Source of the DNA: Sinorhizobium alkalisoli
GTDB lineage: Bacteria > Pseudomonadota > Alphaproteobacteria > Rhizobiales > Rhizobiaceae
DNA: 64,000 nt
Assembly (NCBI RefSeq): GCF_008932245.1
Contig: NZ_CP034909.1
Coordinates: 434,001-498,000 of the forward strand
Direction: 5' to 3'
Shown: positions 49,835-54,605 of the stretch, one piece after another
Layout: each line of letters opens with the position of its first letter
Numbering within the stretch: the first letter of the stretch is position 1
Made by a program: the position numbers and the translations under genes
The notes under the pieces: generated by a model
What the model saw: only the letters and a program-made list of their open reading frames with translations
Database searches by the model: none
What the model was told of the DNA's origin: nothing

Positions 49835-50431
49835 CTAGATGCCGCGGATGATCCTTCGCAGCGCCTCCTCGCGTGCGCCAAGCATCAGCACGTTCTTGAG
49901 CGCCACCTTCGGGTCCTGCGTGCGAAAGATCAGGCCGTCGCCGCGCACATTGCGGTTGACGACCATCCGCCCTCCCTCCGTGCCCGGCTCAATGGCAACG
50001 GCGAAATACATGCGCGAATAGCCGGCCTGGATCCGGTCGAAGAAGTGCGCCTCGTCGCCGAGATCTGAAAAGAAATTTGCGAAGTAGAAAGCCCAGGTGA
50101 CGTCTTTCGATCGAGCAAGCCGGGTCGTGGCGGCCGTCACATGGCAATAGCCAAGGTGCGGGCTCGCGGCGAGCGTCCGGTGGAAGATCATATTCGGGAA
50201 TTTGATCGAGGCGTGAAAGCTGTTGATCCGCTTGTGAGTCGCTTCTCCCGCCGCCGTCAGCTTGCGCCCGGTTTTCTCCGCCACCTCCTCGTAGCTCAGA
50301 TAGCGCCGCTGCTCGGGCGTTTGGCGGCGTCGCTCGATGCGGCCGGTTCGCAGAAACTCGGTGTGGGACGTCGCCTTTGGCACCGGAGCCGACGCCTTCT
50401 CTGAGGCGTCGTAATATCTGAGCTTTGCCAT
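49835..50431 (-). CDS. Conserved protein of unknown function
   Basis: 198 residues. No signal peptide or membrane segment. Readable features: an Arg-rich segment RRRQTPEQRRYLSYEEVAEK, then TWAFYFANFFSDLGDEAHFF and GYSRMYFAVAIEPGTEGGRM in a likely beta-rich second half. I do not recognise the family. It starts before the 680-bp gap that holds the riboswitch on the other strand. Confidence 0.7.
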   Translation of the reverse strand: MAKLRYYDASEKASAPVPKATSHTEFLRTGRIERRRQTPEQRRYLSYEEVAEKTGRKLTAAGEATHKRINSFHASIKFPNMIFHRTLAASPHLGYCHVTAATTRLARSKDVTWAFYFANFFSDLGDEAHFFDRIQAGYSRMYFAVAIEPGTEGGRMVVNRNVRGDGLIFRTQDPKVALKNVLMLGAREEALRRIIRGI

Positions 50432-50749
50432 CGACCTCTGCGCGCCTTCGCGAGAATGCGGTTGAACTACCGGTGGACGCTAAACCATCAGGGTTAACAG
50501 AGTATTTTTCGTACTTCTGCGCGAGGCGCGTGCACCGGTGCCGTCGCAATCAGTCGCAATCTGGATGGTCGCTTTCGCACTTGGGATGGCGTTGCCGAAA
50601 AAATTACCCATTGCTCAACATTTCCTTTATCGTTTTGTTTCTATTAGTGAAAATCGACGCGACCCTCACCGCCGTCCCGCCGTAAGATTGCTGTCGTCTT
50701 TCCAGAATGGAATGTCGTTTATCGGCACTTGTGCGGGCTGCGAGACCGC

Positions 50750-50945
50750 TTAGATGGGGACACTCGAGGTGCCGCCCTGAAGCGGGCGGAGAATTGGGAA
50801 GCCGGTCAAATCCCGGTGCTGCCCCCGCAACGGTGGTGGAGTGAAGCCACGGCGAAGGCCACTGGACGGGAATGTCCGGGAAGGCGCCGGGCGGGTCCTT
50901 GGCGGGACGGCTCCAGAGCCCGGAAACCAGCCTTGAGCACATCGA
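50750..50945 (+). promoter_or_regulatory. Cobalamin riboswitch aptamer
   Basis: Conserved elements in order: GGTGCC (50768), GGGAAGCCGGTCAAATCCCGG, given in parts as GGGAAGCCGGT and AATCCCGGTGCTGCCCCCGC, then GCCACTGG, GGGAAGGC, and the B12 box AGCCCGGAAACCAGCC (about 50916-50931). These match the coenzyme B12 aptamer closely, with spacing as expected. It lies on the plus strand 170 bp before the GbcA-like gene; no other plus-strand gene is nearer. Cobalamin would be expected to repress the downstream pair. The 680-bp gap (50432-51114) also holds an AT-rich stretch (about 50600-50660) that may include the promoter. Confidence 0.85.
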
Positions 50946-51028
50946 CCGTAACGGGTTGCGGCGGGCAGCCGGACGGAGCCATGGCGCGCGGCCTGTTGCC
51001 GCGGGGGTTCCTGTCCTGCCTCTCCGAA

Positions 51029-51083
51029 CTAGAGCGAGATGAGGAAAAGAGTGCGCGGTTTTCCGCCCGCATCTCGCTCTAAC
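51029..51083. repeat. Rhizobial palindromic repeat between aptamer and gbcA
   Basis: AGAGCGAGATG (51031-51041) and CATCTCGCTCT (51070-51080) flank AGGAAAAG..GCGCGGTTTTCCGC, with an inner GCGG-TTTT-CCGC hairpin. It resembles the short palindromic element scattered in rhizobial genomes (RIME2-type). On the plus strand it is followed by AACTCTTTT, so it can also read as a terminator. Confidence 0.7.
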
Positions 51084-51114
51084 TCTTTTGATCTGGGCGA
51101 ACGAGGACATGGGC

Positions 51115-52359
51115 ATGGACATTCAGAGCGAAATGCTGCGCAAGCTGGAGACCCGTCGCGAAGGCTACAGCCTCGACCGGGACTTCTATATCGATCCCGA
51201 CTATTATCGTCACGACTTGGAAAACATCTGGTACAAGGATTGGCTCTTCATCGGCCACGATTGCGAAATCCCGCGGGCCGGCAACTACTTCACGGTGCAG
51301 GTCGGCGATTATCCGATCGTCATCGTTCGCGACCGGCAGGGAACAATCCGGGCGCTGCATAATTCGTGCCGCCATCGCGGCTCGCGCGTCTGCACCCAGC
51401 ACAAGGGCTCTTCGGCAAAGCTCGTTTGCCCCTATCATCAATGGACCTACGAATTGGACGGCAAGCTGCTCTTCGCGCGGCAGATGCCGGACGGGTTCGA
51501 TCCGGCGGCGCACAGCCTGAAGCCGGTGCATTGCGAGGCTGTCGGCGGCTACATCTTCATCAGCCTCGCCGACGAGCCGATGGAGTTCCAGCCGTTCCGC
51601 GACATGGTTTCCGGCTATCTCGCGCCGCATCGTCTCGGCGAGACCAAGGTCGCCTTCGAAAGCACGATCATCGAGAAGGGCAATTGGAAGCTCGTCTGGG
51701 AGAACAATCGCGAGTGCTACCATTGCGCGGCCAATCATCCCGAGCTCTGCCGCACCTATCCCGAAGCGCCGACGGTGACGGGGGTGCATGGCGCGATGAA
51801 CGATCCGGAGATCAACGCCCATTGGCAGAAATGCGAGGCGGCCGGCCTGCCGAGCGCATTCAGGATCGGGTCGACCGGTCAGTTCCGCATGACGCGCATG
51901 CCGCTGATCAACGGCGCCGAGAGCTACACCATGTCGGGTCAGAAAGCCGTGGCCAAGCCGCTCTCCTCCGAAGCGATGACCGGCCGCATCGGCACATTGC
52001 TGCTCTTTCACTATCCGACGACGTGGAACCATATTCTCGGCGACCATGCGATCACCTTCCGCGTGCTGCCCCTCGGTCCCGAAACGACCCAGGTCACGAC
52101 CAAGTGGCTCGTCAACAAGGACGCGGTCGAAGGCGTCGACTACAAGCTTGACGACCTCATCCATGTCTGGACCGAGACCAACGACCAGGACCGGCAGATC
52201 GTCGAGGAGAACGCCTTCGGCATTCGCTCGCCGGCTTACCAGCCGGGACCCTATTCCGTCGAGCACGAGGGCGGCGTGATGCAGTTCGTCGAATGGTACG
52301 CGCGCTACATGCTGGAGCGCCTGCAGCGCGGCGCAGCGCCTCTTTCGCGGGTGGCATGA
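51115..52359 (+). CDS. gbcA: Rieske non-heme iron oxygenase, glycine-betaine demethylase type
   Basis: 414 residues. The Rieske [2Fe-2S] centre is C85-R-H87 and C105-P-Y-H108. The mononuclear iron site has H203 and H208 in NRECYHCAANHPELCR. NWKLVWENNRECYHCAANHPE (in parts) and RTYPEAPTVTGVH are typical of GbcA, which oxidatively removes one methyl of glycine betaine to give dimethylglycine and formaldehyde; stachydrine demethylases are close relatives, so the substrate is likely but not proven. ATG 51115 fits the GAGG ribosome site. The reductase gene starts 1 bp after its stop. The upstream cobalamin riboswitch suggests B12 control. Confidence 0.85.
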   Translation: MDIQSEMLRKLETRREGYSLDRDFYIDPDYYRHDLENIWYKDWLFIGHDCEIPRAGNYFTVQVGDYPIVIVRDRQGTIRALHNSCRHRGSRVCTQHKGSSAKLVCPYHQWTYELDGKLLFARQMPDGFDPAAHSLKPVHCEAVGGYIFISLADEPMEFQPFRDMVSGYLAPHRLGETKVAFESTIIEKGNWKLVWENNRECYHCAANHPELCRTYPEAPTVTGVHGAMNDPEINAHWQKCEAAGLPSAFRIGSTGQFRMTRMPLINGAESYTMSGQKAVAKPLSSEAMTGRIGTLLLFHYPTTWNHILGDHAITFRVLPLGPETTQVTTKWLVNKDAVEGVDYKLDDLIHVWTETNDQDRQIVEENAFGIRSPAYQPGPYSVEHEGGVMQFVEWYARYMLERLQRGAAPLSRVA

Positions 52360-52360
52360 C

Positions 52361-53452
52361 ATGGAAATGGCCCGTTCCTTCCATCATTTCGACGAGCTCA
52401 GCCCCTGGATCGACCGCCAGCACATGCTCGAATGCATCTCGGTGGTGGCCGAAACCGCGGATGTGATGACCTTCACCTTCCGCTCCGACAGGCCGGCCTG
52501 GTTCCGCTACCTGCCCGGGCAGTTCGTAACCCTCGAACTGCCTGTCGGAGAGGAGCCGGTGATGCGCACCTACACGCTCTCGTCCTCACCGTCGCGGCCG
52601 CTCTCCGTTTCGATCACCGCCAAGGCACAACGGGACAGCATCGGCACCCGCTGGATGTTCGACAATCTGAAGCCGGGCATGGTGCTGAAGGCGTTCGGGC
52701 CGCTCGGCGATTTCAGCTTCGTCCGCCATACGGGTGAAAAATATCTCTTCATCTCCGCCGGCTCGGGCATCACGCCGATGATGTCGATGACGCGCTGGAT
52801 GGCAGATTGCGCGCCGGATTCCGATGTCACCTTCATTTCCTGCGCGAGGCGCCCGGAGGATCTCCTGTTCAAGCCGGAGCTGGAGATCCTCGCCAGACAG
52901 ATGCCGCATCTCAATCTCGGCTTCCTAGTCGAGGGGCACGAGGCGCGTCATGGCTGGCACGGGCTGCGCGGCCGTATCGACGCCACGAAGCTGCCGCTGC
53001 TGGCTCCGGATTTTCAGGAGCGAACGGTCTTCTGCTGCGGTCCCGAGCCTTTCATGCGCGGTGTCCGGGAGATGCTTCAGTCCGTCGGGTTCCCCATGGC
53101 CCGCTACCACCAGGAAAGCTTCCAGCCTGCGGCGGCACCAGCAGCAGAAGAGCTTGCCATCCGCGCCGGTGCGGCGGGCGCCGAGGCGGGGACGTCGAAG
53201 GTGATTTTTACCATGAGCGGCAAGGAGGTGGAGGCGATCCCGGGCCACACCATCCTCCAAACCGCGCGTGCCAACGGCGTCAGGATCGGAGCCGCCTGCG
53301 AAGGCGGCATCTGCGGCACATGCCGGGTGTTGAAGATCGCCGGCGATGTGGACATGAACCACAATGGCGGCATTCTCGACGACGAGGTCGAGGAGGGCTA
53401 CATCCTCGCCTGCTGTTCGCGTCCGCGGGGCGACGTCCAGATCGAGGCGTAA
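52361..53452 (+). CDS. gbcB: Ferredoxin-type reductase for the Rieske oxygenase
   Basis: 363 residues. An FAD domain (RTYTLSSSPSRPLSVSI), an NAD domain (FISAGSGITPMMSMTRW, VFCCGPEPFMRGV) and a C-terminal plant-type [2Fe-2S] ferredoxin with CEGGICGTC plus a later Cys in LACCSRP. It transfers electrons from NADH to the oxygenase partner. The ORF starts 1 bp after the oxygenase stop, and overlapping transcription ensures stoichiometric supply. It matches GbcB in length and domain order. Confidence 0.87.
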   Translation: MEMARSFHHFDELSPWIDRQHMLECISVVAETADVMTFTFRSDRPAWFRYLPGQFVTLELPVGEEPVMRTYTLSSSPSRPLSVSITAKAQRDSIGTRWMFDNLKPGMVLKAFGPLGDFSFVRHTGEKYLFISAGSGITPMMSMTRWMADCAPDSDVTFISCARRPEDLLFKPELEILARQMPHLNLGFLVEGHEARHGWHGLRGRIDATKLPLLAPDFQERTVFCCGPEPFMRGVREMLQSVGFPMARYHQESFQPAAAPAAEELAIRAGAAGAEAGTSKVIFTMSGKEVEAIPGHTILQTARANGVRIGAACEGGICGTCRVLKIAGDVDMNHNGGILDDEVEEGYILACCSRPRGDVQIEA

Positions 53453-53528
53453 CCGGACCAACTGTCCTGCTTGGGTCCCACAGCGCCGAGCTCTCAGAGA
53501 CGCGGCGTGGTGGGCAGCAGCGTGAGCT

Positions 53529-54605
53529 TCAGCGCCGCTCGGTCCGGTAGGGCATCAGCGCCTCCGCTGCCTTCACGTCGATCGTCCCGGTGACCGTCGT
53601 ATCAACGGCGGCCTCGACGCCGCTGCCCGAGCCGCTCTCGGCATCGGCACGGCTGATCAGCAGCGGTTGCGACAAGGCGTCGGCTGCTGCGGCGCTGGCG
53701 GCCGGTGACAGGCCGATCGTCGCCGACGCGACCACGGTCAGTACCGGCGGCTTTTCCGGAAGGAGGGCCCCATGCGGCCAGATCTTCTTCAGTTTAGCGG
53801 CGTTCATCGCAGCCACGTTCACATCGATGTCGTTGCGCGTGCCGGGCACGCGATAGGGACAGCGTTTCTTCCCGCAGTTGTGCGCCGACGAGAATTGCCA
53901 GAGCGCGTATTTCTCCCAATTGCCCAGCGGGAAGACCTTGCGGATGTCGGGCTTGTAGCGTGCATACCAGAGCGGCAGGCGGGACAGCAGCCGATGCTTA
54001 AAGCGATTGTCGGCAATGTATTTCGCCGTGACGTGGTTGGTATATAGAATGGGATAGCGACCGGTACGTGACTTGATGTGCCCGGCAAAAATCGCGGCGT
54101 CTTCGAGGGACATGAATTGCACGGGATCCATGCCTTCGATATCGAGCACCATCAATTCGTCCTCGCGCGGATCGGCGTAGTCGAGGAAGTGATTGGCCTG
54201 GTCGACGGGATTGCCCGGCCGGGCCAGATGATAGGCGCCCCAGAGCAGGCCTTGGGAGCGGGCAATCATACGCCGCGTCTGGTATAGCTCGCGGCTGACC
54301 GCATATTTCCGCCACATCGTCTTGCAATGGGCGACCGTGTCGCCGCCGTGATCGCCGGCGCAACTGAAGCTTTCGGGCAGCCCGTCCGAGGCCTTGGCAA
54401 TGAACCCGGCGATGCGCCTGTCCTTCAGCATCGCCTCCCAATCGATGCTGTTCAATTCATAGGCATCGACGATGATGGCGTTCTGCGATTGCTTCCAGGG
54501 CTCTATATTGGCGGCGCATGCCGTCGCCGTCGCCGCGAAGGTCAGGCCCACGAGGGCCGCCAGGCGCAAGATCGTTCCCGAGATCGAGAGTCCCCGCTTT
54601 TCCAT
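53529..54605 (-). CDS. Exported GH25-type lysozyme-like protein
   Basis: 358 residues. MEKRGLSISGTILRLAALVGLT reads as signal sequence (in parts: MEKRGLSISGTILR, LAALVGLTFAATATACA). The GH25 fold is seen in IIVDAYELNSIDWEAMLKDR, IAGFIAKASDG, LLWGAYHLARPGNPVDQAN, the catalytic pair region MVLDIEGMDP, and YTNHVTAKYI. The tail (about 290-358) is a Pro/Ala/Ser-rich extension. Family members cut peptidoglycan glycan strands. Convergent with gbcB. Confidence 0.8.
   Translation of the reverse strand: MEKRGLSISGTILRLAALVGLTFAATATACAANIEPWKQSQNAIIVDAYELNSIDWEAMLKDRRIAGFIAKASDGLPESFSCAGDHGGDTVAHCKTMWRKYAVSRELYQTRRMIARSQGLLWGAYHLARPGNPVDQANHFLDYADPREDELMVLDIEGMDPVQFMSLEDAAIFAGHIKSRTGRYPILYTNHVTAKYIADNRFKHRLLSRLPLWYARYKPDIRKVFPLGNWEKYALWQFSSAHNCGKKRCPYRVPGTRNDIDVNVAAMNAAKLKKIWPHGALLPEKPPVLTVVASATIGLSPAASAAAADALSQPLLISRADAESGSGSGVEAAVDTTVTGTIDVKAAEALMPYRTERR

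Follow-up and report, generated by a model that had tools for sequence, protein, structure and literature searches.

The window analysed here, 64,000 nucleotides of Sinorhizobium alkalisoli (positions 434,001 to 498,000 of contig NZ_CP034909.1, i.e., C1:434001-498000 of genome G000, 6.13 Mb in three contigs), carries a cobalamin riboswitch aptamer upstream of a gbcA-gbcB-like gene pair, and among relatives this aptamer is present, and is lost, together with MtgB of the B12-dependent betaine demethylation system MtgBCD. We consider it probable, at roughly 0.78, that GbcAB is a B12-free stand-in for MtgBCD that is repressed when B12 is plentiful. With plentiful B12 the riboswitch in the gbcAB leader would prevent production of the Rieske demethylase, most likely through masking of the ribosome-binding site, and betaine would be demethylated by the corrinoid enzyme MtgBCD with the methyl group passed to folate or methionine. 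A shortage of B12 would disable MtgBCD and lead the riboswitch to release gbcAB, the products of which would serve as a B12-free substitute using O2 and reduced nicotinamide nucleotide (NAD(P)H). Release of formaldehyde by GbcAB is established chemistry, and formaldehyde would be the one-carbon product of this substitute. It is tempting to see here the MetE/MetH arrangement carried over to osmolyte breakdown. The class of riboswitch and the isozyme logic are already known; no description of the target or of the enzyme pair was found in the open-licence papers searched. It is also fairly likely that the two enzymes form a widespread, unrecognised isozyme pair in Alphaproteobacteria, that B12 status sets, by way of an RNA, whether betaine methyls go through MtgBCD to folate and methionine or through GbcAB to formaldehyde, and that the riboswitch stays intact only while MtgB is kept.

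The elements of the locus needed for the argument are the following.

50750-50949, + strand: cobalamin riboswitch aptamer (RF00174; Rfam cmscan, 104.6 bits, E 2.8e-26)
50818-50831, + strand: L5 region of the aptamer, GCTGCCCCCGCAAC, from the sequence and its alignment to the Rfam consensus; the name L5 is a reading of the Rfam structure line
50858-50864, + strand: GCCACTG, which we take to be the core of the B12 box, from the sequence and the same alignment
50954-50970, + strand: P13-type hairpin with loop GCGGCGGGC at 50958-50966, the L13 loop motif being kept across leaders
51103-51107, + strand: Shine-Dalgarno (SD) sequence GAGGA of gbcA, of which AGGA is invariant in 26 aligned leaders
51115-52359, + strand: gbcA-like Rieske oxygenase subunit, 414 amino acids (PF00355 and PF00848)
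52361-53452, + strand: gbcB-like reductase with flavin (FAD), nicotinamide (NAD) and 2Fe-2S domains, 363 amino acids (PF00970, PF00175, PF00111)

The initial annotation, made from the letters of the stretch alone, had proposed a B12 aptamer ahead of gbcA-gbcB-like genes, and both parts of that proposal hold. The aptamer scores 104.6 bits against a gathering threshold of 31.5 and covers model positions 1-189 of 189, and a cmscan of 50000-54500 gives no other Rfam match at E up to 1; gbcA of many relatives is likewise preceded by a cobalamin aptamer. The two genes encode, side by side, an oxygenase with Rieske and catalytic domains and an FAD/NAD/2Fe-2S reductase, which is the make-up of GbcAB, and their top NCBIfam matches are GbcA (NF058607) and GbcB (NF058606). 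The start of gbcA is best placed at 51115, giving 414 amino acids as in the first-listed homologs, while the domain, family and structure scans used a start at 51109. Sinorhizobium sequences come closest to the GbcA-like protein (93% for S. kostiense), and among solved structures 3n0q and 3vca/4qup do so. By kinship the pair is a quaternary-amine Rieske demethylase, and glycine betaine is its likely substrate.

The same genome carries the B12-dependent counterpart. Among three MttB-family genes in G000, the one at C1:1894464-1896161 encodes MtgB, which matches PDB 4yyc at 1146 bits, followed by 2qne and by 9yce, entitled 'Glycine betaine methyltransferase'. It adjoins a gene for a corrinoid protein whose top NCBIfam match is MtgC, below the cut-off, and genes for a homocysteine methyltransferase and a glycine-betaine transporter lie within 25 kb. 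Of seven further MtgB loci, six also have an MtgC-like gene within the fetched stretch. MtgBCDE is described from Ruegeria pomeroyi and S. meliloti (PMC12478193; statements drawn here from articles cited by PMC number refer to the excerpts of them that were consulted). In Ruegeria both the demethylation of betaine and the synthesis of methionine require MtgC and MtgD, and MtgBCDE of S. meliloti is located with the cobalamin operon (PMC12478193). In G000 the MtgB locus is 1.4 Mb from gbcAB, and it is not preceded by any of the cobalamin riboswitches found in that genome.

Evidence also comes from the distribution of the aptamer and MtgB among relatives. Three samples were used: a named sample of the best 80 of at least 588 GbcA relatives; an order-wide draw, in which 59 of 297 genomes matched (the window's own included) and 29 others with fetched loci were used; and a class-wide draw, in which 8 of 385 matched (again including the window's own) and the other 7 were used. 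The MtgB query was searched at E 1e-60, and in the named genomes MtgB was scored as present at 66% identity or more. The aptamer was called by Rfam in 80 of the 116 relatives' loci, i.e., the 26 named negatives, locus L062, 17 other named positives and all of the order (29/29) and class (7/7) loci, and by sequence motif alone in the other 36, which are named and positive; the 16 loci put to Rfam last all agreed with the motif call. In the named genomes the aptamer precedes gbcA in 54 of 80 and MtgB is likewise present in 54 of 80: 53 have both, one has MtgB only (L075, Ciceribacter lividus), one the aptamer only (L062, Rhizobium sp. Leaf371) and 25 have neither. The order sample gave 17 with both, 2 with MtgB only, 0 with the aptamer only and 10 with neither, and the class sample 4, 1, 0 and 2, respectively. 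Pooled to 114 genomes, with L023 and L029 dropped (the same genomes as L096 and L113) and the window left out, the counts are 72, 4, 1 and 37, so that MtgB is present in 72 of the 73 aptamer-bearing relatives. Recurrence at orthologous loci, on which the initial annotation had staked its riboswitch, gives a mixed outcome: the aptamer is seen at 54 of the 80 named loci, and the absences at the other 26 are lawful.

Shared ancestry was considered with a GbcA tree of 115 rows, a quick gene tree used as the phylogeny. On this tree the aptamer changes at least 14 times and MtgB 12 times. Among independent pairs on branches with good support, seven differ in MtgB, of which none opposes the association (median p 0.03, range 0.016-0.125). 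A model in which the two traits depend on each other is preferred over an independent one (likelihood ratio 37.6, nominal p 1e-7, approximate as rates lie at their bounds), and in it the aptamer is lost about 40 times faster without MtgB than with it (rate 17.9 versus 0.43). The aptamer at gbcA, as judged by these comparisons, follows MtgB, and this is what a B12-independent isozyme would be expected to show.

The leader downstream of the aptamer is also conserved. The loop GCGGCGGGC is largely complementary to L5 of the aptamer (GCCCCCGC), and the L13 loop motif GCGG-N-GGGC is found in 69 of 72 leaders with an aptamer (a count including the window and the two repeated genomes) versus 0 of 38 without. 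The three exceptions are L034, of which the start position is misassigned, L043 and L062. In most leaders the pairing of the P13-type stem is maintained through changed bases, e.g., T-A, T-G, G-C and G-C in the window and C-G, T-G, A-T and G-C in Mesorhizobium; a few leaders, such as L123-L125, retain the first pair only. Judged by sequence, and with 26 leaders aligned, the leader at gbcA has what is expected of an L5-L13 kissing loop followed by a regulatory hairpin. No intrinsic terminator was found on the + strand of 50500-51200, which includes the gap between aptamer and gene, and one was found in only 1 of 69 leaders; loci without a clear ATG and repeats were dropped from this comparison, as from the anti-SD/SD and TGTCG comparisons below. 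A transcription-terminating platform was rejected on these grounds. The SD sequence is predicted to be more paired in aptamer-bearing leaders (median 0.83, 70 leaders) than in those without (0.60, 34 leaders; Mann-Whitney p 1e-4, kinship ignored, six loci without a clear ATG left out), and this suggests, subject to the anti-SD/SD comparison below, that gbcA may be controlled at translation.

One further element lies between the riboswitch platform and the SD sequence of gbcA in the window.

51030-51082, + strand: inserted palindromic repeat in the leader, with 10 dispersed genome copies

This 53-nt palindrome is absent from the leaders of the ten relatives compared; G000 holds 10 dispersed copies at 3 mismatches or fewer, and a backwards-read control gave 0. 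We take it to be a RIME-like element. In the predicted fold it caps a stem in which the SD region is paired, the fold as a whole not being unusually stable (z -1.7).

Traces of riboswitch loss can be recognised in some relatives. L062, the sole locus with an aptamer and no MtgB, scores 57.9 bits and has no L13 loop, while gbcA aptamers elsewhere score 76-118 bits; judged on these features, the L062 aptamer is an eroded one. Its sister row on the tree, L060, has neither aptamer nor MtgB. The hexamer TTAGAT stands at the 5' edge of the aptamer in 37 of 69 leaders and is retained in the aptamer-free leaders L060 and L075. The promoter side points in the same direction.

50713-50717, + strand: TGTCG promoter-side motif, a possible activator site, from a pattern search of leaders

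The pattern TGTCG[CT][TCA][TCA], which may resemble the sites bound by regulators of the GATase-AraC type, GbdR among them, was searched in the same 500-nt stretch of both groups, with a shuffled expectation of 5-7% per part. In aptamer-bearing leaders it occurs at -500..-301 in 65 of 69 and at -300..-1 in 2 of 69; in aptamer-free leaders the figures are 9 of 38 and 33 of 38. Since the motif lies either upstream of the aptamer or close to the gene, the promoter side seems to have been kept in aptamer-free leaders and a riboswitch-sized stretch to be missing.

Several observations weigh against GbcAB as a B12-free stand-in for MtgBCD. First, both proteins miss the NCBIfam equivalog cut-offs (513.6 against 670 bits for NF058607 and 389.1 against 500 for NF058606), and for this reason 'gbcA-gbcB-like' is the right wording and glycine betaine is no more than likely as the substrate; eight relatives of the window's GbcA score 488-527 bits on NF058607, all under 670. 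The pair shares domain make-up, gene order and top NCBIfam match with GbcAB of Pseudomonas and Chromohalobacter, and differs from them in being below both cut-offs. The structure 3vca also falls under the cut-off of the GbcA model, at 494.3 bits, and another betaine is therefore possible as the substrate. Second, four genomes have MtgB and no aptamer at gbcA (L075, L039, L050 and L144), which implies that the control is dispensable. Third, at E 1e-60 the MtgB query finds no match whatever in the MtgB-lacking genomes, and the partner could therefore be another member of the MttB family. Fourth, gbcB is missing from the fetched stretch in 12 of the 26 aptamer-free named loci, and part of that group may thus do something else. 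Fifth, anti-SD sequences pair with the SD of their own leader no better than with that of another leader (14.45 versus 14.48), so that co-variation of the two gave no signal. Finally, PMC12478193 explains betaine use by S. meliloti by MtgBCD alone and mentions aerobic bacteria lacking GbcAB, with a study of S. meliloti among the citations.

A different substrate under the same isozyme logic, i.e., proline betaine or another quaternary amine, paired with the MttB-family enzyme for that substrate, is rather unlikely, although it is the least improbable of the alternatives considered. We take 3vca to be Stc2, the demethylase of stachydrine (proline betaine). The window protein is a close homolog of it over 394 residues (510.9 bits), and the two are alike on the GbcA model, 3vca being slightly lower (494.3 versus 513.6). 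Many genomes hold several MttB paralogs, and one MttB locus adjoins a Rieske N-terminal remnant and a gene for a betaine-binding protein. On the other hand the best-matching partner is MtgB beside an MtgC-like gene, and MtgB is the only MttB-type match in seven aptamer-bearing genomes (G309, G317, G338, G356, G362, G295 and G254).

The initial annotation had seen the purpose of the control in methyl supply: betaine demethylation would feed one-carbon units to the S-adenosylmethionine (SAM) methylations of cobalamin synthesis and B12 would shut this supply off. Betaine is indeed added in industrial B12 fermentation, where it is described as a methyl donor (PMC8123684), and cobN is present in the window's genome. 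The idea is nevertheless weakened to the point of being very improbable. All 26 named genomes lacking MtgB have cobalamin riboswitches over the cut-off, yet 25 of them, most with cobN, have none at gbcA and only one does; cobN is matched in 22 of the 26 (21 over the cut-off), the genomes of L120, L121, L127 and L128 giving no match. The methyl-supply reason does not fit this distribution, and, moreover, formaldehyde from GbcAB would lead to SAM less directly than MtgBCDE does. As far as these gene and riboswitch matches tell, most MtgB-lacking genomes can both make and sense B12, and the part that is missing is the B12-dependent rival enzyme. The shut-off by B12 that the initial annotation assumed would still apply, but on different grounds. 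A loss of the two traits from the same clades by chance, or along with other parts of the genome, is barely credible: there are just 12-14 changes on a quick gene tree, the both-negative blocs can be large (e.g., R. leguminosarum-type and Agrobacterium-type rows) and the sign test alone is weak with its 7 pairs, but separate both-negative rows occur in Xaviernesmea, A. vitis, Brucellaceae, Sphingomonas and Martelella, and the dependent model is preferred with no opposing pair.

If GbcAB substitutes for MtgBCD, the closest precedents are metE and nrdAB, which encode B12-independent isozymes under cobalamin riboswitches. The gbcAB locus would share with them the class of RNA and a B12-free enzyme standing in for a B12-dependent one of the same genome. 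It would differ in that the gbcAB step is catabolic (demethylation of a quaternary amine) and that the two enzymes, an O2-dependent Rieske oxygenase and a corrinoid methyltransferase, are unrelated and give different one-carbon products. Among the targets of cobalamin riboswitches, 'isozymes of B12-dependent enzymes' form an established class (PMC3766115), and the word 'betaine' does not occur in the main text of that article. In S. meliloti a cobalamin riboswitch was, in 2007-2008, listed from Rfam upstream of smc00982 (PMC2245857) and placed between SMc00983 and SMc00982 (PMC2573895), and SMc00982 was termed 'likely encoding a dioxygenase' (PMC2848018). As the gene arrangement matches that of the window, the SMc00982 locus is probably orthologous to the gbcA locus studied here; the riboswitch was catalogued there without a function or a partner (excerpts of PMC2245857 and PMC2573895). 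The excerpts of PMC12478193 contain no link between GbcAB and B12. In open-licence PubMed Central we found no paper that connects gbcAB with a B12 riboswitch or treats it and MtgB as isozymes, and a search combining riboswitch, B12, Rieske and betaine gave only PMC12478193, where 'riboswitch' stands in the title of a reference. This agrees with the suggestion of the initial annotation that gbcAB is not a standard member of the B12 regulon.

Substitution of MtgBCD by GbcAB would, if true, have a number of consequences. GbcAB would be one more candidate for the second system of betaine demethylation noted in S. meliloti, which the authors of 2025 ascribed to MtgBCD, and the riboswitch that has been in S. 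meliloti lists since 2007 would gain a testable role. A catabolic pair would join the short list of B12-dependent/B12-independent substitutions, and osmolyte turnover of rhizosphere bacteria would be tied to B12 supply. It would also provide a predictor from the genome only, as a cobalamin riboswitch before gbcA would mark organisms running both routes.

Some minor observations concern the two enzymes. A second MttB-family gene of G000 (L014:8444-12562, i.e., C1:1310443-1314561) lies beside a 96-residue frame that matches the N-terminus of the Rieske oxygenase and has no Pfam match, and past a regulator-like gene follows a gene for an OpuAC betaine-binding protein. On the basis of this arrangement, a Rieske demethylase for another betaine has perhaps been displaced at this locus by a B12-dependent enzyme. 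MtgB of the L061 genome (Rhizobium sp. 32-5/1, G307 C1:4066019-4067589) is in two overlapping pieces, which reflects either a frameshift or a sequencing error. Loci with gbcA and neither gbcB in the fetched stretch nor a riboswitch are L073, L074, L076, L079, L085, L088, L090, L094, L097, L099, L101 and L129, a group of R. leguminosarum-type and related genomes; in L123-L125 the riboswitch is present though gbcB is missing. L128, L122 and L071 are labelled Bacillus subtilis, Sphingomonas paucimobilis and Arenimonas (a metagenome-assembled genome), respectively, and their GbcA groups with Rhizobiales rows; the position of the L128 protein next to Pseudochrobactrum suggests that this record is mislabelled or contaminated.

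Other cobalamin riboswitches were seen in G000 and near gbcA of relatives. A scan of G000 gave five over the cut-off and one weak match. Near those other than the one at gbcA are genes for CbtA (cobalt transport), a nitroreductase-family protein, presumably BluB, and a periplasmic binding protein. No evident B12 gene follows the top-scoring one (129.8 bits, C1:1943315-1943527, L018); the first solid gene found downstream of it encodes a DUF924 protein. A second cobalamin riboswitch lies near gbcA at L030:3247-3444, L040:816-1020 (- strand), L141:3149-3359 and L069:9766-9974 (- strand), and at three of these loci (L030, L040 and L141) it diverges from the gbcA-side one at a distance of about 250 nt or less.

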